Part shown: piece after piece, positions 1-8,040 of the stretch
How the letters are laid out: each line of letters opens with the position of its first letter
How positions within the stretch are numbered: the first letter of the stretch is position 1
Source of the DNA: Chloroflexota bacterium
Lineage (GTDB): Bacteria > Chloroflexota > UBA11872
NCBI GenBank assembly: GCA_026707585.1
Contig: JAPOWQ010000048.1
Location: 1-40,589 of the forward strand
Direction of reading: 5' to 3'
DNA length: 40,589 nt
Made by a program: the position numbers and the translations under genes
Notes under the pieces: model-generated
Told to the model about the DNA's origin: nothing
Databases searched by the model: none
What the model saw: only the letters and a program-made list of their open reading frames with translations

Positions 1-1489
1 GGGTGTGGAGATCTGCAGGAGAAACGGACCCGGGTCTAACGTTGGGCGATGCGCAGCTGCGGAAACTCGGAGATCTGGGCACTCGGGAGCGGCCCGATCC
101 TTCGAGAGCCGCTCGTCGACGGTCCGAGAACCGCCACGCGACGGTGGCCCGCGCCAGGCGTATGGGTTGCCGCGCGGGAAAGCGCAATCCTTGACGTATG
201 ACGTCGCGTCGACCGTCAGCAGTCGTCGAGACCGGGTCGCAGGTGCCGTCAGCAGGCACGGTGACCGGCATTGGGCGCGCGGTGGCGGCGCGAGGGACGG
301 TCGCTCGGGTCGACTCTTCGCCGGGACGAGGGATGACGTGTCCTTCTTGCGAGCCCGTCGTGGCGGCTCGTTCGCTTGCGACGCGCCGTAGCGACGCCGA
401 CAGTCTTGGGATGTTCGCAGGTGGCCACGCCCGTGCGTCGGACGCGGACGCTCCTCTGCATGGGAGCGTGCGCGCGCAGGCTTACAGACGAGGCTCACGC
501 GCCTACCAGCGGGCGTACGTCGACCCTGCGCTGTCTGACCGATGCGGACGCCGAAAAGACCTGGCAAACGCGGTGCCAGGTCGGAGTGTCTGGCGATCCG
601 AGTGCCCGAAGAATTGTTGGCGTCGAGGGCGGACCGCGCGTGTTCCCTCGAAGGCAGCTCCCGCCGAAGACCGATCTGCCGGGTGCCGGAGTTGGCCACG
701 ACCGACGCAGCGGTTAGCGTAGACGGTCGCGGCGTCCGAGTTGGGTGCTTCGGGCCGCGAGTGCTCGGTGCCAGCACGTGCCCAATCGATCCCGAGAGTG
801 CTCCACCAGCACTCGTTGAGCCGTGCTGGTCGAACGAATGCGGCACAGCGGCTCGACTCGCTGGCCGATGGCTCACTGACACAACGGCAATCTCGGGAAC
901 GGCGTCATTCGCTGTGTCGCGAGCACGGTTCGGCGGACGTCGTCCCGGACGTCGTGTTTCGTGGAAAGGCCGCAGGCGCCGGCACAGAGCGGCGTTTGTT
1001 GGTGCGTTCGTTCGCTCACGGCATGGTCATCGTCCGCACGAAACCCAAGGCTTGGAATCCAGAAATCTGTAATTGTCGCGGTGATCCCGCCTGAGCTATC
1101 GAATCTGCCTGGGTGGGCGCCTCGGGCAACGCATCCATAGTGCGAATGCTCGTCCCGCAGTCTGACCTGTCACCTTGGATGAAGTCTTGGACTCCGAACA
1201 GTCGCCACCTGGATTGCCGCACGCGTCTAGCGGTGTACGCGGGCGGCAACGTTCCGAAGCGGATTCGTGCTGTCTGTGAGCTTAATTGCTAAGTCAGCGG
1301 GTATCTCGGGCGCCCGGCGGATCCAACTGCGAACTGCGTGCATCGCGAAGCCAGCGCCGACGGTGCCAAAGAAAACCGGCTGAGCGATCAGGATTGGCCG
1401 CGCCTGTTTTGCCGATATTCGGGTGCAATCCCAGCAATGGACACAGTGTGCTCGGCCGATTCACGCCAGCCGCCGGCAGGTCGTACCGA
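1..1489. other. Gene-poor GC-rich stretch, no supported gene
   Basis: All six frames were inspected. The open frames here are Arg/Ala/Gly-rich, overlap each other on both strands, have no recognisable motif and no convincing ribosome binding site, as expected for chance ORFs in GC-rich DNA. I see no RNA gene or terminator. It may be decayed coding sequence of the accessory region, but I cannot name an ancestor. Confidence 0.5.
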
Positions 1490-1816
1490 CTAGATGCGTG
1501 CCTCAGCCCAGTGAACCACCGAATCCGCGACTCGAACGGCATCTGTGTACTCCTGCTCGGACACGGGCTGCGCCACGTCGGGATAGCGGGTCGTCGTGAC
1601 ATATGGATTGAGCCGCTCGGCTTCCCGGACTGTCACTGGCACTGACTCGCCCGCGTCCTCGAGAAGTGTCAGCAACAGGCCAATGTCGTGCACATAGGGA
1701 AACTCAACGCCACGCACGATCAACAAGGCCTTGATGGCCTTTTCCGCGGCCTGCTGCACATCGAAGCAGAGATCTTCGAGGTAGACGGCTGGGAGACGAC
1801 TCGCGGCTCTGGCCAT
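1490..1816 (-). CDS. HEPN-domain protein (toxin-like partner of MNT nucleotidyltransferase)
   Basis: The 108-residue ORF matches the small HEPN family: the N-terminal segment YLEDLCFDVQQAAEKAIKAL followed by an Arg-x7-His segment (RGVEFPYVH) is characteristic. HEPN partners of MNT proteins are usually RNases or RNA-binding toxins in type VII toxin-antitoxin pairs. It lies directly downstream of the MNT gene (1869-2231) on the same strand, the usual order. The first ATG is probably not the ancestral start: the same frame upstream reads PPDDPREWLNRARSN, which matches the normal HEPN N-terminus, yet no ATG, GTG or TTG precedes it back into the MNT gene. Expression may use a non-standard start, or the gene may be 5'-damaged. 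It ends with TAG. Function is inferred from the family. Confidence 0.8.
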   Translation of the reverse strand: MARAASRLPAVYLEDLCFDVQQAAEKAIKALLIVRGVEFPYVHDIGLLLTLLEDAGESVPVTVREAERLNPYVTTTRYPDVAQPVSEQEYTDAVRVADSVVHWAEARI

Positions 1817-1868
1817 ATTGCTGCGGGCGCGATTGAGCCACTCTCGCGGGTCGTCTGGTGGGAAACGC

Positions 1869-2231
1869 TCAGGCGGCTTCGTAGACCACCGTTCCTTCCT
1901 GCAAGGCGGGTTTAATCACCAGCGCATGGCTGTCCTTGTAGCGCTCGAGGTGTGCCGGGGCGACGACGATGGCGTCGACGGCGATCCGCACGCCGCGAAG
2001 CTTGCGGTGGATTCGCGCGGCGAGGCCGCGTGTGTCCTGGGCGTCCTTGACAATCAGCAGGTCGATGTCGCTGTTTGGGCCCATCTCGCCTCGTGCGGCG
2101 GACCCGAAAAGAATGATCTTCTCGGGCTGCGCCACTTCGACAACACGCTGCACGATATCAGCCAGCGCTTCCTGATCGAGCGTGTGGTCGTGCATGGGCG
2201 ACGCATTCCCGCGCTGGAGCTGTTCGGACAT
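1869..2231 (-). CDS. MNT-type minimal nucleotidyltransferase (antitoxin-like)
   Basis: A 120-residue protein with the nucleotidyltransferase signature GSAARGEMGPNSDIDLL, meaning the GS motif and the D-x-D metal-binding pair; a further acidic residue in VDAIVV fits the third catalytic Asp. MNT proteins of this size typically pair with HEPN proteins and neutralise them by AMPylation or binding. The HEPN gene follows after about 50 nt. A start at the second Met (2195) is possible, with GGGA about 11 nt upstream giving MHDHTLDQ as N-terminus; the first ATG has only an adjacent AGG. The stop TGA lies just ahead of the HEPN-homologous reading frame. The family call is secure; activity is inferred. 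Confidence 0.85.
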   Translation of the reverse strand: MSEQLQRGNASPMHDHTLDQEALADIVQRVVEVAQPEKIILFGSAARGEMGPNSDIDLLIVKDAQDTRGLAARIHRKLRGVRIAVDAIVVAPAHLERYKDSHALVIKPALQEGTVVYEAA

Positions 2232-2700
2232 CCTACGGGCCTACGAGTCCTCGATTGGGCGAGGATTGGCCGCTGGCAGCGATCGTGTGCACTGGCAATC
2301 TCCTCGAAAGCTCCAATCATTCCGAATGGTGACTAGCGCAACTTTTGATTCAACGCGGCTCGGGTGTCATGAGCAACATTACGCTTTGGAGGCTGTTGCC
2401 GTTGGTTACGCAAGTGTGCGCTACGGGTGAGGCTGCGTGCATCGGGCCTTCTTTGTGCTCTTGTTGGCCAACCCGGGCCCCGGTGGGATTCACCGTGTAC
2501 CGATGAGCGCGAGACGACGCGTCTCAGCGGGGCTCAACAGCGCCGTTCGGGCATCGAATAAAGTAAGAAACAACTGCAATTTGTAGAAAAGGAACGCATG
2601 TACATTGCTTGCGATTGTTTGCCAAAATCTTATATGAGCCGGCTGGTGCATGGCTCACCGGCATCAGTGTCAATGACGACTCTCCTAGTGAGTTGAACCG
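2232..2700. other. Intergenic stretch, no gene seen
   Basis: No frame shows coding character. Base composition becomes more AT-rich from about 2550. The only candidate signals are a weak sigma70-like promoter near 2609-2636 and the ribosome binding site of the next plus-strand ORF. Confidence 0.5.
2609..2636 (+). promoter_or_regulatory. Possible sigma70-like promoter
   Basis: TTGCGA (2609-2614), a 16-nt spacer and TATATG (2631-2636), about 75 nt upstream of the ATG at 2713. Both boxes deviate from consensus, so this is a weak prediction, supported mainly by its position in AT-rich DNA ahead of an ORF with a strong ribosome binding site. Confidence 0.25.
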
Positions 2701-2712
2701 AGGAGGATTGCC

Positions 2713-2946
2713 ATGTGGCGATCTGTTACTCGCATCGTGTTTGTCCTGATGGTTACAGCAGTCGGCGCATCCCTATTGATCGGGACCGTACATACGGAAC
2801 GTTCGGTGCCCGAAGCACTCATCCTTGAGCCCCTTGCGATCGGCGGACTGATCTGCCAGACCTTCACAGCCTCTCCACCGAGCTCAGGTGGCGTTGTGGA
2901 GCACGGGAGCGTTGATGTGCGAATGGTGACAGTACCCAGCGCCTAG
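2713..2946 (+). CDS. Small secreted or anchored protein, N-terminal part, ended by in-frame TAG
   Basis: A 77-residue ORF preceded by a strong GAGGAGG Shine-Dalgarno 7 nt before the ATG. Residues 1-27 look like a signal peptide or signal anchor: a basic start MWRSVTR, then a hydrophobic core VFVLMVTAVGASLLIG. The mature part is short and contains one Cys. The TAG at 2944-2946 is followed in the same frame by 132 more codons with protein-like composition up to a TAA at 3343-3345, so the original product was probably about 210 residues. I do not recognise a family. It is either a nonsense-disrupted gene or a gene with amber readthrough. Confidence 0.55.
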   Translation: MWRSVTRIVFVLMVTAVGASLLIGTVHTERSVPEALILEPLAIGGLICQTFTASPPSSGGVVEHGSVDVRMVTVPSA

Positions 2947-2967
2947 CCGGATGAAATTAATCCGAAC

Positions 2968-3345
2968 GTGGCAATGTCCAGTGACGACACCTGCGCGTAC
3001 ATCAAATACACACAGCGCAAGGTTTTCTGGTCAATGACAGAATGGTGCTTGGACGGCACCTACATTGCACGCGGGCATCCAGTACTGACGGAAGCGACAA
3101 ACGTCCATTCGTTCACGACCGCAACGGCGAACTACATTGAAACGGCCAAAGATTCGATTGTGCGGAAAGTGGCCGGCGGCTTCCAACACAAGCTTCACCA
3201 AGATAAGGGGTTGGCGCATCTCGTTGTGTGGGTTACCCCGCACTATGGACCAATAGCGCTAGTCTGCGAGACGTACAGCAACAAACTGTCAATTGAGAAG
3301 TGGCGGTTTGGTACAGGAGCATCGAGGGCAACCGGCGACGGCTAA
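2968..3345 (+). CDS. In-frame continuation of the 2713 ORF (C-terminal part)
   Basis: The reading frame continues from the ORF at 2713 after its TAG. Counted from GTG 2968 it is 125 codons; in-frame residues PDEINPN lie between the TAG and this GTG. The segment is soluble-looking, with aromatic and Cys residues (SMTEWCLDGTYIARG, WVTPHYGPIALVCETY), consistent with an extracytoplasmic domain. There is no Shine-Dalgarno before the GTG, so independent translation is doubtful. The most economical reading is the C-terminal domain of one secreted protein separated from its signal peptide by a single TAG. Family unknown. Confidence 0.45.
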   Translation: MAMSSDDTCAYIKYTQRKVFWSMTEWCLDGTYIARGHPVLTEATNVHSFTTATANYIETAKDSIVRKVAGGFQHKLHQDKGLAHLVVWVTPHYGPIALVCETYSNKLSIEKWRFGTGASRATGDG

Positions 3346-3405
3346 GTACATGTCATAGCAAAAGTACCGCGCCTTTCGGCGTGAGGTCCTCTCTTGTTAG
3401 AAGAT

Positions 3406-3561
3406 TCAAATCAAATACCCAAGACCGGCAACTAGGCCGAGGATTCCTAAACCTATAAGGATCCCACACAACCCACCACCGAACCACGACTCGACATATT
3501 CATCAGTGGGCATGTCGTCTGGTCTTGGTGGTGGATAGTCACCGCCCGGCCAGCCGGCCAT
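3406..3561 (-). CDS. 51-residue C-tail-anchored membrane protein (operon ORF6)
   Basis: The protein begins with a Pro/Gly/Asp-rich soluble segment (MAGWPGGDYPPPRPDD) and ends with one hydrophobic helix (residues about 31-51, LCGILIGLGILGLVAGLGYL), so it is probably tail-anchored. AGGAA lies 6 nt upstream of the ATG. The ATG overlaps the TAA of the preceding frame as TAATG, which implies translational coupling to the upstream ORF. It is the last gene of a six-ORF chain running from 4705. The stop is TGA. No family recognised. Confidence 0.55.
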   Translation of the reverse strand: MAGWPGGDYPPPRPDDMPTDEYVESWFGGGLCGILIGLGILGLVAGLGYLI

Positions 3562-3776
3562 TAGATTCCTGTCTTTCCATCGTGCTCGATTGTCGTCACC
3601 TGTCTTTCCTGAGCCGGCACCATAGCTCGATCGATGTCGGAGCCGTGGATCGTCGCTTCAACTGTCGCCTGCTACAACACCAGCGAGGAGATCGTCCTAG
3701 CAAGGACCACAACAATAGCTAAGGATAGAATCGCAAAGATTAGCGCACCGATGCCCAACAGGATGCTCTTTCGCAT
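3561..3776 (-). CDS. Small membrane protein with an in-frame TAG at codon 35 (operon ORF5)
   Basis: GAGGAGAGG precedes the ATG at 3776. Codons 1-34 encode one transmembrane helix (MRKSILLGIGALIFAILSLA and onward) and end at TAG 3672-3674. The same frame then continues 36 codons, through QATVEATIHGSDIDRAMVPA, to a TAA whose last base is the first base of the next ATG (TAATG). This exact junction argues that the full frame of about 70 codons was the functional gene. So the product is either a 34-residue truncated peptide or, if the TAG is read through, a single-TM protein with a 36-residue tail. Not assignable to a known family. Confidence 0.5.
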
Positions 3777-3961
3777 TGTTGGTTCCTCTCCTCAATGCTG
3801 CGGACGCGCTCTTCAAGGTCAAGCAGGCGTCCCGACTGATCACTGTTCTGCTAGATTGCCTGCATTGCCACATTCTGAGCCCAATAGAGACGGGCATCAA
3901 CAGATAAGATTTATGCAACGAATAAGACGCCCGCAATGAGAGTGACGCGTTTCGTTCTCAT
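3776..3961 (-). pseudogene. TM plus coiled-coil small protein frame broken by TAA and TAG (operon ORF4)
   Basis: The ATG at 3961 overlaps the TGA of the preceding gene as ATGA. The frame encodes MRTKRVTLIAGVLFVA, a TAA at codon 17, ILSVDARLYWAQNVAMQAI, a TAG at codon 37 (3851-3853), then a charged heptad-like segment QNSDQSGRLLDLEERVRSIE. At codon 62 CAA overlaps the next ATG (CAATG), in the same geometry as the TAATG junction downstream, so an ancestral TAA stop may have become CAA. There is no frameshift anywhere in the frame. It looks like a small protein with an N-terminal TM helix and a coiled coil that has gained two nonsense codons. Confidence 0.45.
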
Positions 3962-4416
3962 GTCGATCTCACGCCGAGGACTTCAATGAAGAACACTTGA
4001 TCTCCGAGGCCACGCTGTAGGTCATGTGGTGCGTTGTACGTGTACGCACCATTGGCCGGCACGGTGAAGTCGTCAGACCAATTGTAGCGAGCCAGGGCAT
4101 ATCCTTCAGCATCAAGAAACAGAATGCGTAGGTTATACACGTCTACGAGGGCTTCCTCATTCGTAGGGTTGCGTACCGTGAATCTAAATGACAGACGCGT
4201 TTCGTCATTGGTCTGCGAGATCAGCTTCCATTCAATGGAATCCTCAACAATCACAATGTTCTTGTTTTGATTGTCGTCGGCACGTGGGAGCAATCCTGCG
4301 CTGCGCACGATGGTCAAGCCAAACAAGTACAGCGACATGCCGATCGTCACACCTACAATAATGGTCAATAACAATAAGAGGTGTCCACCGATGCCGCGCA
4401 GGTGTTCCCTTCTCAT
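3958..4416 (-). CDS. Membrane-anchored protein with extracytoplasmic beta-domain (operon ORF3)
   Basis: The 152-residue product has an N-terminal hydrophobic helix (residues about 11-38, LLLLLTIIVGVTIGMSLYLF) followed by a soluble domain. The pattern LSFRFTVRNPTNEEALVDVY, then ILFLDAEGYALARYN and DFTVPANGAYTYNAP resembles FxLYD/LEA14-like immunoglobulin-fold domains found on bacterial surface proteins. Resemblance is by pattern only. The start ATG overlaps the TGA of the upstream gene (ATGA), and its own TGA overlaps the next ATG, so it is embedded in a tightly coupled operon. Likely an extracytoplasmic domain held at the membrane; substrate or partner unknown. Confidence 0.75.
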   Translation of the reverse strand: MRREHLRGIGGHLLLLLTIIVGVTIGMSLYLFGLTIVRSAGLLPRADDNQNKNIVIVEDSIEWKLISQTNDETRLSFRFTVRNPTNEEALVDVYNLRILFLDAEGYALARYNWSDDFTVPANGAYTYNAPHDLQRGLGDQVFFIEVLGVRST

Positions 4417-4625
4417 GCTTCTCTCCGATCATGCAATCCGGCTGCCGCTATGAGGGCGACAGCGCTAAAGAGCAGCCCTCCAGCAAGCCATGACTTGAAG
4501 CTGTATCCTTTCGCTGATGCCACGATAGCCGTATACACGGCTGTGGCGACGTAGGCGCTGATGATCCAGACAATTACCAACGCATTCAATATCATCGCCA
4601 ATTGCATCAGAGTGGGAGGGGTCAT
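4413..4625 (-). CDS. 70-residue membrane protein with two helices (operon ORF2)
   Basis: Two hydrophobic helices, residues about 8-32 (AMILNALVIVWIISAYVATA) and 47-63 (LAGGLLFSAVALIAAAG), are separated by a short polar loop (SAKGYSFKS). The start ATG overlaps the TGA of the 27-residue ORF upstream, and its own TGA overlaps the next ATG at 4414-4416. It has no good Shine-Dalgarno of its own, consistent with coupling to the upstream ORF. No known family recognised; the size and topology recall small holin-like or scaffold membrane proteins, but nothing else supports that. Confidence 0.65.
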   Translation of the reverse strand: MTPPTLMQLAMILNALVIVWIISAYVATAVYTAIVASAKGYSFKSWLAGGLLFSAVALIAAAGLHDRREA

Positions 4626-4705
4626 CGTGTGCTCGATGAGTTCTGGGCCTGGGAAATAGCAGCAACTAGAATTGGTTCAGAATTGCCGGTTATCTTCTGC
4701 CGCAT
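4622..4705 (-). CDS. 27-residue leader ORF of the mini-membrane-protein operon (operon ORF1)
   Basis: A 27-codon frame (MRQKITGNSEPILVAAISQA and seven more residues) with a near-perfect Shine-Dalgarno (AGGAGG at 4711-4716, 5 nt from the ATG). Its TGA overlaps the next ATG as ATGA. The strong site here and the weak site of the next gene suggest that ribosomes load on this short ORF and re-initiate downstream. Whether the peptide itself has a function is unknown. A lone perfect TTGACA lies upstream (4766-4771 on the minus strand), but no convincing -10 box at the right spacing was found. Confidence 0.45.
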   Translation of the reverse strand: MRQKITGNSEPILVAAISQAQNSSSTR

Positions 4706-4719
4706 GTGAGCCTCCTACG

Positions 4720-6000
4720 AGCAGCCAAGTAATGCCCGGCATGCAAAGCCATGTAGCACCATCAATGTCAAGGGCGGTCAGGTGCGTCAGGGCAAGACTG
4801 TCGGTGAGTTTGCACAGCTGAAGAGGCTCTTGCAAACCAACCCGTTGCCATTCGTGGCAGTTCTCGATTAGAACCGAGGGTCGGCATATTCGCAAAGCAC
4901 GGGCCTGAGTGAGAGGCCCGCTGATGACGGTCTGTGGGGAGGCAGGCGGCTGAACGGTGCTGGGTGGACGATTACCCAGCGTGCTGAAGAAGTCTCCAGG
5001 TGTGTCCCGTCGTGCGACCTCGGGGGCAGATGCTCGTGCCCACAACGTTGCGGTACGAGGTACTGAACTCGCAGGGTCAGGCAGATCGCCGACGACACTT
5101 TGCCCGGAGGCCTGTGGCCGCTGCTCCGCACGACCTGGACCGACCGCGTCCCGCTGACGTGGGACGACAGAAGATTGACGTCGCCCGACCCATACTCAAC
5201 GCAGGCGAGTGGGGGGCAATCACGTTTCGAGGTGCAAGTCGACTTTCCGTTGTCGGCCAGCGCGTCTCCGGCGTGGCTACCCTGGCATGGGCCATCGCGT
5301 GCCCGGCTTAGGCGGCACGTCAGGGAAACCCATCACCAGCCGAGGGCGATCTGGTCGACACGGCGTTGCGTCCGACGCCGGACATGCGCCACGGGTCGAT
5401 CGACCGTCGGCGACTCGTTGTTCCCTGAAGGCCCGGCGTCCCGCTGACCGAGCGCCGCGCCGCGCGCGTGGCCGACGCGGTCGCGCGGTACCGGCGGAGG
5501 CAGCGTGAGATTCCGTGCGGCTCGCGTGCCGTGTCGGCGTCGGCGACGGGCTCGATCACGAGCGCATCGATCCCCGTGTCAGTTCTCACGAACTGGACCG
5601 GTGCCATGCATGGCCGGGGGTGGATTCCAGACCTCTGCGGCCCATGGCGTGCCATCCGGGTCGGTGCGAGGCGACCGCTCGCCACCGGAGATCCGCGGCC
5701 GGTTGCGGCTTGTCGCTGATATCGAACGGCTAGCGCCCGAGCAGCTCGAGCGCGCCAGCGGTCACCGACCCGCGGCCACCGAGCAGTGCTGCATGGCCTG
5801 CGCGACGGGCGGCCCCTGGGTCGGCCACGGCCGACCAACGGCACATCGCCCTGCAGTGCTCCGGATGCCCGCATCGCCGACGCCTCACCAATCCTCGGCT
5901 ATGACTCGTGCCGCACGTTCGGCGGGGTCGCTCGCATTCGATCCACGCGTGGGGAGCCGCGACACGATGACCCGCGCTGACTGAGCGATGAGAGCTCGAC
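4720..6000. other. Gene-poor stretch with decayed coding remnants
   Basis: No intact gene is supported. The frames here are Arg-rich and overlap on both strands. A PIN-like remnant occupies about 5027-5360. Between 5460 and 6000 short fragments look protein-like (for example RLRLVADIERLAPEQLERA near 5700-5760) but do not join into one frame, suggesting older coding DNA broken by indels. No RNA gene or terminator recognised. Confidence 0.4.
5027..5360 (+). pseudogene. Possible decayed PIN-domain toxin
   Basis: One frame reads QMLVPTTLRYEVLNS. After a frame change the next reads VRQIADDTLPGGLWPLLR and PLTWDD. This order resembles the middle of VapC-like PIN toxins, where a conserved ...P..LRYEVLNAL segment precedes a helix and ...L....PLTW. 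The N-terminal catalytic Asp region and a clean C-terminus are not recoverable. It is offered as a remnant by pattern recognition only; the nearby MNT/HEPN pair makes toxin debris plausible here. Confidence 0.3.
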
Positions 6001-6002
6001 AC

Positions 6003-6524
6003 CTACGGCCTGAGCTCCGCCACGTGTGCGGTACCACGATTTTTTCTCGAGGCGTCGACTGTGGGCGAGACAAGACGGATCGGGCTCATTGACCCGGGTG
6101 GAGCGGCCGAGATCCGCTCGATCGCGGCTCGAAGGGCAATCGCCACCATCGCGCACACAACCGGCCGGTAGACCCGCGACAAATGCGAGCGGCTCATGCC
6201 CATCGTGCGGGCGATCGCGGCAATTGTCTCGCCCCGCGCGTACTGCTCCAGAAAGTCCCGCTTCTTTGCCGGTAGGGCAGGGAGCGACGCATCCACGGCC
6301 TCGCAGAGCAGGTCCTGGAGCGCCAGGACCTTCCCGTGCGGATGCCGCGGATAGCGTTGCCGCGCATAGGCGCCCACGCCGGTGTGGGTGGCCAGCGGCG
6401 ACTCGCGCAGGCGCACGGGGTCGCCCAGATGGCGGAGGCAGGCGTCGACCAGCCGGGCCCACTGGTCCAGGGACCGACGGCCGGGGCGCGCAGACGCGCG
6501 GCTGACCGTGGCAGCGCTGGGCAT
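6003..6524 (-). CDS. Helix-turn-helix DNA-binding protein near the recombinase
   Basis: The 173-residue protein has a helix-turn-helix segment at residues about 87-120: KKRDFLEQYARGETIAAIAR followed by TMGMSRSHLSR. It resembles sigma-region-4/LuxR-like helices. The N-terminal half is basic and then helical; the C-terminal tail is low-complexity. A good Shine-Dalgarno (GGAGG, 7 nt) precedes the ATG. It lies 98 nt downstream of the tyrosine recombinase on the same strand, so it may act as an excisionase-like or regulatory partner of the element. That role is inferred from position. Confidence 0.7.
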   Translation of the reverse strand: MPSAATVSRASARPGRRSLDQWARLVDACLRHLGDPVRLRESPLATHTGVGAYARQRYPRHPHGKVLALQDLLCEAVDASLPALPAKKRDFLEQYARGETIAAIARTMGMSRSHLSRVYRPVVCAMVAIALRAAIERISAAPPGSMSPIRLVSPTVDASRKNRGTAHVAELRP

Positions 6525-6622
6525 GTCTCAGCCTCCGTGTGGGCCCGCGGGCTGGCTACCCAGGATTCCCTATTGCGTCGACGACGGTTCGGCGCCGAGT
6601 GTCGACGCGCTGGGGCGGCCGA

Positions 6623-7717
6623 TCACCCCACCACCTCCAGGAGTTGGCCGGTCTCGGTCTGGACCACGATGGCCCCGCCCTCGGCGGCCACGAGGCGGGC
6701 GCGCCCGCGCTTGCGGCGGCGCGGGAGCCGACGAAAGGCCTGGAAGTTCGGGAGGCGATCGACGGGCGAGTGCGCCTGGTGCCGGGCCACGACATCGGAG
6801 GTGGCCAGGTGCAGGTAGTGGTTGACCATCACCAGGGTGGTGTGGCCGAGGATGCGCTGCAGGGTCAGCACATCGCCGCCGGCCCGAAGGTAGGCGACGC
6901 CGAACGTGTGGCGGAAGCGATGCGGGTAGAGGGGGGCGACGCCCGCGCGCCGGCCGATCTGGTCGACGATGCGGGCCAGCGCCTCCCGCTTGAGGGGGCG
7001 GCCGCGATGACTCAGGAACAGGGGCGCGTGCGGCTCGGCCGCCACGTCCCCGGCCTGGCGAAACACGCGGACGTATCGCACGACGACGTCGCGGCTCCGG
7101 CGCCCGAGCGCCACCACGCGGTCCTTCGCGCCCTTGCCGCCGAGCACGTGGACCTCGCCGGTGGCGAGATTGAGGTCCGCCAGGCGCAGGTGGCAGAGCT
7201 CGGAGGCCCGCAGCCCGGTGTCGAGCAGCACGCTCACCAGGGCCAGGTTGCGCAGGCCCGTGGCCGTGCGGGGATCGAGGCTTTCGATGATGCGGCGATG
7301 CTCCTCGTCGCTGAGCGGCTTGACGTCCTTCTTGGGGAGGCGGCCCGGCCGCAGCTTGGCGAGCGGATTGGCGGGCCGGTCGGTGTAGTCGGCGAGCCAG
7401 CCGGCAAACGTGCGCAGGGTGCGGCAGTAGCCGTGGACCGTGTGCGGCGCCAGGCGGCCGGACGTCGATCCCCGGCGGCTGCCGTGCGCCTTGACGTGCT
7501 CCGTGCGCAGGTAGCGCTGCCAGACCAGCGCCAGGTCCAAGGTCAGATCGGAGGTCCGGGTGGAGCCGCGGTGCGCGGCAAAGGCGACGAACTTCCCGAG
7601 CACGAGGCGATACAGGGCGAGCGTGGAGGCGGCAAAGCCCTCGGCTTCACAGTGGTCCAGATAGAGGGCAACGGCGTCGGCGAGATCGAACTCGATGGGC
7701 GGGGACATGCCCGGCAT
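6623..7717 (-). CDS. Tyrosine recombinase/integrase (XerC/D-like)
   Basis: A 364-residue site-specific recombinase with an N-terminal SAM-like core-binding domain (about 10-115) and a catalytic domain (about 135-310). The catalytic set is visible: Arg170 in DTGLRASEL, Lys195 in GGKGAKDR, His266-x-x-Arg269 in YPHRFRHTF, His292 in LGHTT, and nucleophile Tyr301 in VNHYLHL. The C-terminal ~55 residues beyond the Tyr are a basic extension (RLPRRRKRGRARL) unlike XerC/XerD. AAAGG lies 7 nt before the ATG. The gene lies 240 bp from a tRNA-Leu, a common integration site, so it is more likely the integrase of an accessory element than the chromosomal dimer resolvase. Confidence 0.93.
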   Translation of the reverse strand: MPGMSPPIEFDLADAVALYLDHCEAEGFAASTLALYRLVLGKFVAFAAHRGSTRTSDLTLDLALVWQRYLRTEHVKAHGSRRGSTSGRLAPHTVHGYCRTLRTFAGWLADYTDRPANPLAKLRPGRLPKKDVKPLSDEEHRRIIESLDPRTATGLRNLALVSVLLDTGLRASELCHLRLADLNLATGEVHVLGGKGAKDRVVALGRRSRDVVVRYVRVFRQAGDVAAEPHAPLFLSHRGRPLKREALARIVDQIGRRAGVAPLYPHRFRHTFGVAYLRAGGDVLTLQRILGHTTLVMVNHYLHLATSDVVARHQAHSPVDRLPNFQAFRRLPRRRKRGRARLVAAEGGAIVVQTETGQLLEVVG

Positions 7718-7820
7718 GATGCGGCCTTTCCGCCGGCGCCGGACCCGATCCGTGCGCCGGGCGTGCGGCGGATCGGCGGGCGCCGTGCGGGGACCGCGCG
7801 GTGGGCGTCAGCTTCGACCG

Positions 7821-7862
7821 CGCAGGCTAGTGGCCTGCGTAAGCCCTCGAGGCTAGTAGCCT
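7821..7862. repeat. Paired palindromic repeats sharing a core with tRNA-Leu
   Basis: Two direct copies of GGCTAGTRGCC start at 7825 and 7851, 26 bp apart, each inside a palindrome: CGCAGGC/GCCTGCG (7821-7827 with 7833-7839) and AGGCTA/TAGCCT (7850-7855 with 7857-7862). The same 12-mer GGCTAGTGGCCT occurs on the opposite strand inside the tRNA-Leu gene (7990-8001). Lying between the integrase gene and the tRNA, these are candidate recombinase binding or attachment sequences. Confidence 0.45.
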
Positions 7863-7955
7863 TGCGTCACGTCGACGCCGGATTCGTGGCCGTCGTCCCC
7901 TGCCCGCGGCGCCCGGATTCGGGCTCCCCAACAGGTTTGGACGCGTGTCGTCGGG

Positions 7956-8040
7956 TGCCGAGGGCGGGACTCGAACCCGCACAGCCCGAAGGCCACTAGC
8001 CCCTCAAGCTAGCGCGTCTACCAGATTCCGCCACCTCGGC
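7956..8040 (-). tRNA. tRNA-Leu (anticodon GAG)
   Basis: The minus strand folds as a class II tRNA. The acceptor stem is GCCGAGG with CCTCGGC plus discriminator A; the D-arm is followed by an anticodon stem CTAGC/GCTAG around loop TTGAGGG, giving anticodon GAG (Leu, codons CUC/CUU). A long variable arm precedes a T-arm containing GGGTTCGAGTCCC. The 3' end reads ACC rather than an encoded CCA. The extended variable arm matches Leu identity. Confidence 0.93.

Follow-up and report, generated by a model that had tools for sequence, protein, structure and literature searches.

A probable second, partly decayed copy of a modular envelope-protein locus on an integrative island of a Chloroflexota genome

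The stretch of DNA analysed here (the window; 40,589 nucleotides) carries, on the minus strand between positions 4705 and 3406, six short frames. They probably belong to a modular envelope-protein locus that occurs in a Chloroflexota genus and in its sister genus, and of which the window would hold a second copy, borne on an island and partly decayed. A preliminary description had presented these frames as an operon of tiny, translationally coupled, mostly membrane-anchored proteins, and as the parts list of one small membrane complex. That description has the kind of operon right, but the six parts do not make up an intact complex, because f1 has no homologue, and f4, f5 and the convergent secreted-protein gene (SEC) are broken here by nonsense codons. 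The anatomy and the history of the locus are well supported; its biochemical role is read from that anatomy only.

All six frames are present where they had been described, most of them with a membrane segment. The 27-codon f1 (4622..4705) lies 3′ of the one strong Shine-Dalgarno sequence (TAGGAGG), and is followed by f2, or module C (4413..4625, two membrane segments, intact), f3, or module D (3958..4416, 152 amino acids, intact), f4 (3740..3961, a membrane segment and a coiled coil), f5 (3561..3776, a membrane segment and a polar tail) and f6 (3406..3561, 51 amino acids, intact, with a Pro-rich start and a C-terminal membrane anchor). The junctions are ATGA for f1/f2, f2/f3 and f3/f4, CAATG for f4/f5 and TAATG for f5/f6, exactly as claimed. 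For Markov-1 sequences matched in dinucleotide content, the median length of the longest ATG frame in 1300 nt was 77 codons (95th percentile, 129), and ATGA, with 9 occurrences against 9.9 expected, was not enriched. Frame lengths and ATGA counts are weak evidence when taken alone, and the evidence that matters for the frames is their conservation. Scans for promoters and terminators gave no signal above that of shuffled sequences. No Pfam, NCBIfam or PADLOC family was found for the array members, which agrees with their having been called undescribed; a defence system was likewise rejected, as PADLOC had no match for the array.

Homologues of f3 were found in 10 of the 12 congeners, and a paralogue is present in the window's own genome. 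Those of f2 occur in two other loci, the second locus of the same genome (L016) and that of G009 (L017), in each case directly before D, and six other congener genomes carry f6 (G001, G004, G006, G008, G009 and G010). The Nei-Gojobori dN/dS ratios of f2 (about 0.16-0.20), D (0.07-0.39) and f6 (about 0.06-0.21) identify all three as protein-coding families, but these ratios are pairwise and do not separate the branch that followed the move, so that the frames in the window may already be unconstrained. As judged from such comparisons, purifying selection is acting on the three families.

The first frame behaved differently. It had been taken for a leader peptide, an assignment that is rejected, as no homologue of f1 was found. 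It shares the stretch TAGGAGGCTCACA with the second D gene of L017, at the start of that gene, and MRQK with gene A′ of L019 and L020, and the DNA of f1 resembles the 5′ starts of other array genes. It is probable, on these likenesses, that f1 is a remnant of the 5′ end of an array gene. In f2, conservation starts at about Met7 (4607) or Met11, inside the called frame, and hence the ATGA that joins f1 to f2 falls in non-conserved sequence.

The predicted model of D (mean pLDDT 82) consists of one helix (residues 6-40) and a beta-sandwich (62-147), in line with a single membrane helix followed by an Ig-like domain. In Foldseek, the domains that matched best were Ig-like ones from GH2 enzymes, from ApaG and from DUF1425, which indicates a fold, not a function. 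Sequence comparison with solved structures gave no credible homology. When a profile built from 17 D relatives was run against 400 genomes of the phylum, no match was obtained outside the genus; a weak match in G078, seen with a single-sequence search, was not recovered by the profile. The named records with D homologues are Chloroflexi/Chloroflexota metagenome-assembled genomes. A congener, G002, has two D-related domains, one of which ends a predicted lipoprotein and reaches 17.1 bits against the FxLYD model (NF038353), below the cut-off of 23; this arrangement and the sub-threshold match are consistent with an extracytoplasmic binding domain. The D of the window (P0001) had no FxLYD match even at E 1, nor had the aligned D relatives. 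Outside the membrane, D is predicted to have a beta-sandwich ectodomain similar to those of FxLYD proteins, DUF1425, ApaG and GH2 enzymes; D differs from FxLYD proteins in the lack of a match to the model, in having a membrane helix in place of a lipobox, and in its shuffled operon. The literature search returned no text with the term "FxLYD domain" and nothing relevant on this type of locus. A phage origin was considered and rejected: IMG/VR contigs contained no relative of D or f6, and PHROGs matched the integrase, with weak matches only elsewhere.

The window copy has four nonsense codons across three genes: f4 is broken by TAA at 3911-3913 and TAG at 3851-3853, f5 by TAG at 3672-3674, and SEC by TAG at 2944-2946. 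Homologues of f4 were found in two genomes, intact in G008 (64 amino acids, L022 8359-8553) and broken in G009, and proteins of the same plan, with a membrane segment and a coiled coil, occur in L062, L064 and L137; the dN/dS of f4 in the window is about 0.5 (Nei-Gojobori). For f5, the one homologue is that of G009 (L017), which is frameshifted. Other copies of the locus also carry breaks, in B and f4 (G009), SEC and f6 (G004) and SEC (G001 and G005). If the stops were read through or recoded, full-length f4, f5 and SEC could still be made, and all three frames do continue in recognisable homology past their stops. Against such recoding, sense codons stand in the intact homologues (TAC or TGG where f4 has its stops), the stops are of all three kinds and lie at different places in different species, and the Rfam search found the tRNA alone and no recoding element. 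Read-through is very improbable.

It could also be argued that the whole window copy is dead and that f2, f3 and f6 have merely not yet been hit. Three linked genes are broken, the lengths of the open frames are within reach of chance, and an apparently intact set (A-B-C-D-E2 with SEC) exists elsewhere in the same genome, on C38 and C19, two contigs whose ends are identical over 55 nt within SEC. Still, f2, f3 and f6 are open and their families have diverged mainly by synonymous changes over long distances (pairwise, not branch-specific, values), and we regard a wholly dead copy as unlikely.

The comparison with the congeners revealed where the locus usually resides and how it varies. The usual site is 3′ of a zinc-dependent dehydrogenase gene (MDR), and the array there is drawn from modules A, B, C, D, E2, f4 and f6. 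It reads A-B-C-D-E2 in the window's own genome (G000), A-B-C-D-f4-f5 with a second D in G009, A-D in G007 and G011, A′-D-f6 in G001 and G006 (with f6 truncated in G001), and D-f4-f6 in G008. G012 has A and a chimera in which the membrane part of B carries a coiled-coil tail, G004 has D and an f6 remnant, G005 has an f4-like gene, and at the MDR site of G010 a LysM/SH3 membrane protein (L119 1578-2627, minus strand) stands in place of the array. Each species thus has a different subset of modules, and single modules also occur alone. SEC or a SEC remnant lies opposite the array in every MDR-site locus examined.

The stop/start overlaps are conserved between species at the C-D, A-D, D-f4, D-E2 and f4-f6 junctions. 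The order C-D-f4-f5 is shared by the window and G009, and D-f4-f6 by the window and G008, where the last codons of f5 are fused to f4 (L022); f4-f5-f6 looks like the older order because of this fusion. In G010 an intact f6 overlaps, through ATGA, with an intact 116-amino acid protein of the f4 plan. The frames do co-occur in relatives, and the part of the preliminary description that placed them together stands. An intact, functional complex of six proteins, with f1 as its leader peptide, would fit the conserved order and overlaps of f2 to f6. However, f1 is not conserved, f4 and f5 carry nonsense codons, and the composition varies freely between species, with chimeras and lone modules; that complex is largely refuted and very improbable. 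The data are better described by a modular, shuffled locus than by the components of a single complex. In a genome of the sister genus (G017), B-, f6-, E2- and f4-like genes face an intact SEC, although the E2-like match is weak (E 0.02); the association of array and SEC is for this reason either older than the genus or has moved between genera.

In most congeners the last 58 codons of MDR (residues 271-328) are duplicated beyond the array and SEC, mostly with 53-60% protein identity (L017 723-893, L019 10369-10542, L020 9109-9245, L021 3666-3815, L064 8148-8321, L066 8256-8429 and L119 2899-3072). The distance from the duplicate to the SEC start is mostly a constant 125 nt, and the duplicate may go back to an old insertion at the MDR 3′ end.

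The preliminary description had also noticed a convergent secreted-protein frame opposite the array. SEC is indeed present, but is longer than noticed (2713..3345, plus strand, 210 codons), with the in-frame TAG given above. Intact homologues were found at L022 9340-9969, L017 1018-1647, L067 3104-3673 and L137 7987-8640. The SEC promoter and signal-peptide region lie in a near-constant element (2628..2814, plus strand), which in blastn is 76-93% identical to copies in 16 other loci. Across the loci examined, this element of ∼170-200 nt occurs about 20 times, often as direct repeats flanking the array; the G006 copy and that of the sister genus are 91% identical. SEC proteins overall are 25-42% identical to that of G008. 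The AlphaFold model of SEC was unusable (pLDDT 47). SEC-like domains, with WCWDG and GG motifs and paired Cys residues, are repeated within a membrane-spanning protein of G011 (L138 2795-4426, 4435-5571), and are also present in a single secreted protein of G029 (L139 3237-3848); they had no Pfam family match.

From this anatomy, the membrane proteins may, as a tentative reading, display binding domains outside the cytoplasmic membrane, where they would contact the secreted partner or envelope or host surfaces. The main rival to a display role is an effector-immunity system, in which SEC would be an exported, bacteriocin-like antagonist with a diversifying mature part behind a constant signal peptide, the small membrane proteins would protect the producer, and mobile copies would decay once their partner was lost. 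In favour of this rival, every MDR-site locus examined, and the sister genus as well, has SEC opposite the array, the mature parts of SEC are 25-42% identical compared with 76-93% for the 5′ element, and the small membrane proteins have a mobile, patchy and decaying distribution. In its small secreted protein, with a constant leader and a diverse mature part, beside small membrane proteins, the locus is indeed like bacteriocin/immunity pairs. It differs from them in that SEC is convergent and not in an operon with the membrane genes, and in that the membrane proteins are several and structurally different, some without an adjacent SEC; neither SEC nor the membrane proteins matched a known toxin or immunity family in Pfam, NCBIfam or PADLOC, and tandem SEC-like domains within membrane-spanning proteins would be unusual for a toxin. 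The locus is unlikely to be of the effector-immunity type.

A tyrosine recombinase gene (6623..7717, minus strand; Pfam PF00589, E 6e-36) lies beside the 3′ end of a tRNA-Leu(GAG) gene (7954..8040, minus strand), the attachment site, and the integrase linkage noted earlier is thereby confirmed, with the recombinase on the same island as the array. Homology with eight congeners reaches the tRNA 3′ end and then ends, the island being absent there. A displaced 3′ half of tRNA-Leu (58 bp, 84% identity) is found on contig C63 of G000, where it heads the sequence that follows the tRNA in the congeners. Window positions 1-7953 are part of an integrative island, because the homology to the congeners breaks off at the 3′ end of the tRNA gene and resumes on C63 behind the displaced tRNA end; the island spans these positions and extends beyond the contig start, contigs C44 and C63 not being joined. 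The GC content of the array (0.52) is lower than that of its surroundings (0.69-0.73 at window positions 5001-8000, and 0.62 to the right of the tRNA), and the array therefore looks like a foreign patch within the island. The window island is like other tRNA-targeted integrative islands in having a tyrosine recombinase at the tRNA 3′ end, a displaced tRNA end on the far side, no counterpart in congeners and GC-deviant cargo, and differs from known ones in that its middle lies on unjoined contigs.

Two further observations concern this region. On the minus strand at 1490-1816 and 1869-2231, adjacent genes code for HEPN-domain and nucleotidyltransferase proteins (PF05168 and PF01909; MntA is matched weakly), and the two probably form a HEPN/MNT toxin-antitoxin pair carried by this island. 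In congener G012, the tRNA-Leu 3′ end is followed by a 3447-amino acid type I polyketide-synthase-like frame (L089 2049-12392), and the G000 region homologous to this post-tRNA region lies behind the displaced tRNA end on C63.

It is likely, then, that the window holds a partly decayed second copy of a modular locus. In its intact form, one transcript would code for small proteins, each predicted to be anchored by one or two membrane helices and to expose a short part outside the cytoplasm (an Ig-like sandwich, a coiled coil or a Pro-rich tail); the amounts of these proteins would be linked by translation through the stop/start overlaps. The gene opposite, near-constant in its 5′ part, would supply a secreted protein whose mature domain changes. 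From species to species, modules would be added, lost or joined to one another, and recombination between the repeated ∼170-nt constant elements is the probable mechanism. One such unit would have been carried to the tRNA-Leu gene by the tyrosine-recombinase island, where f2, f3 and f6 stayed open and f4, f5 and SEC gained nonsense codons, presumably by decay, with an apparently intact set still held at the usual site. More speculatively, and with little confidence, the locus could be a cassette-shuffled system of Chloroflexota, pairing a secreted protein with membrane receptors (or an effector with immunity proteins), in which the constant element lets new mature domains and small membrane partners swap in, and which travels on tRNA islands.

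Short overlapping membrane genes are easily missed by gene callers. The comparison made here shows that: i) several undescribed families (the A/D sandwich, C, B, f4, f6 and SEC) are real, and ii) they are carried along together and exchanged among species. If SEC and the membrane proteins are partners, this locus, known here from metagenome-assembled genomes alone, would give Chloroflexota a surface-interaction system that diversifies and that can be put to the test.
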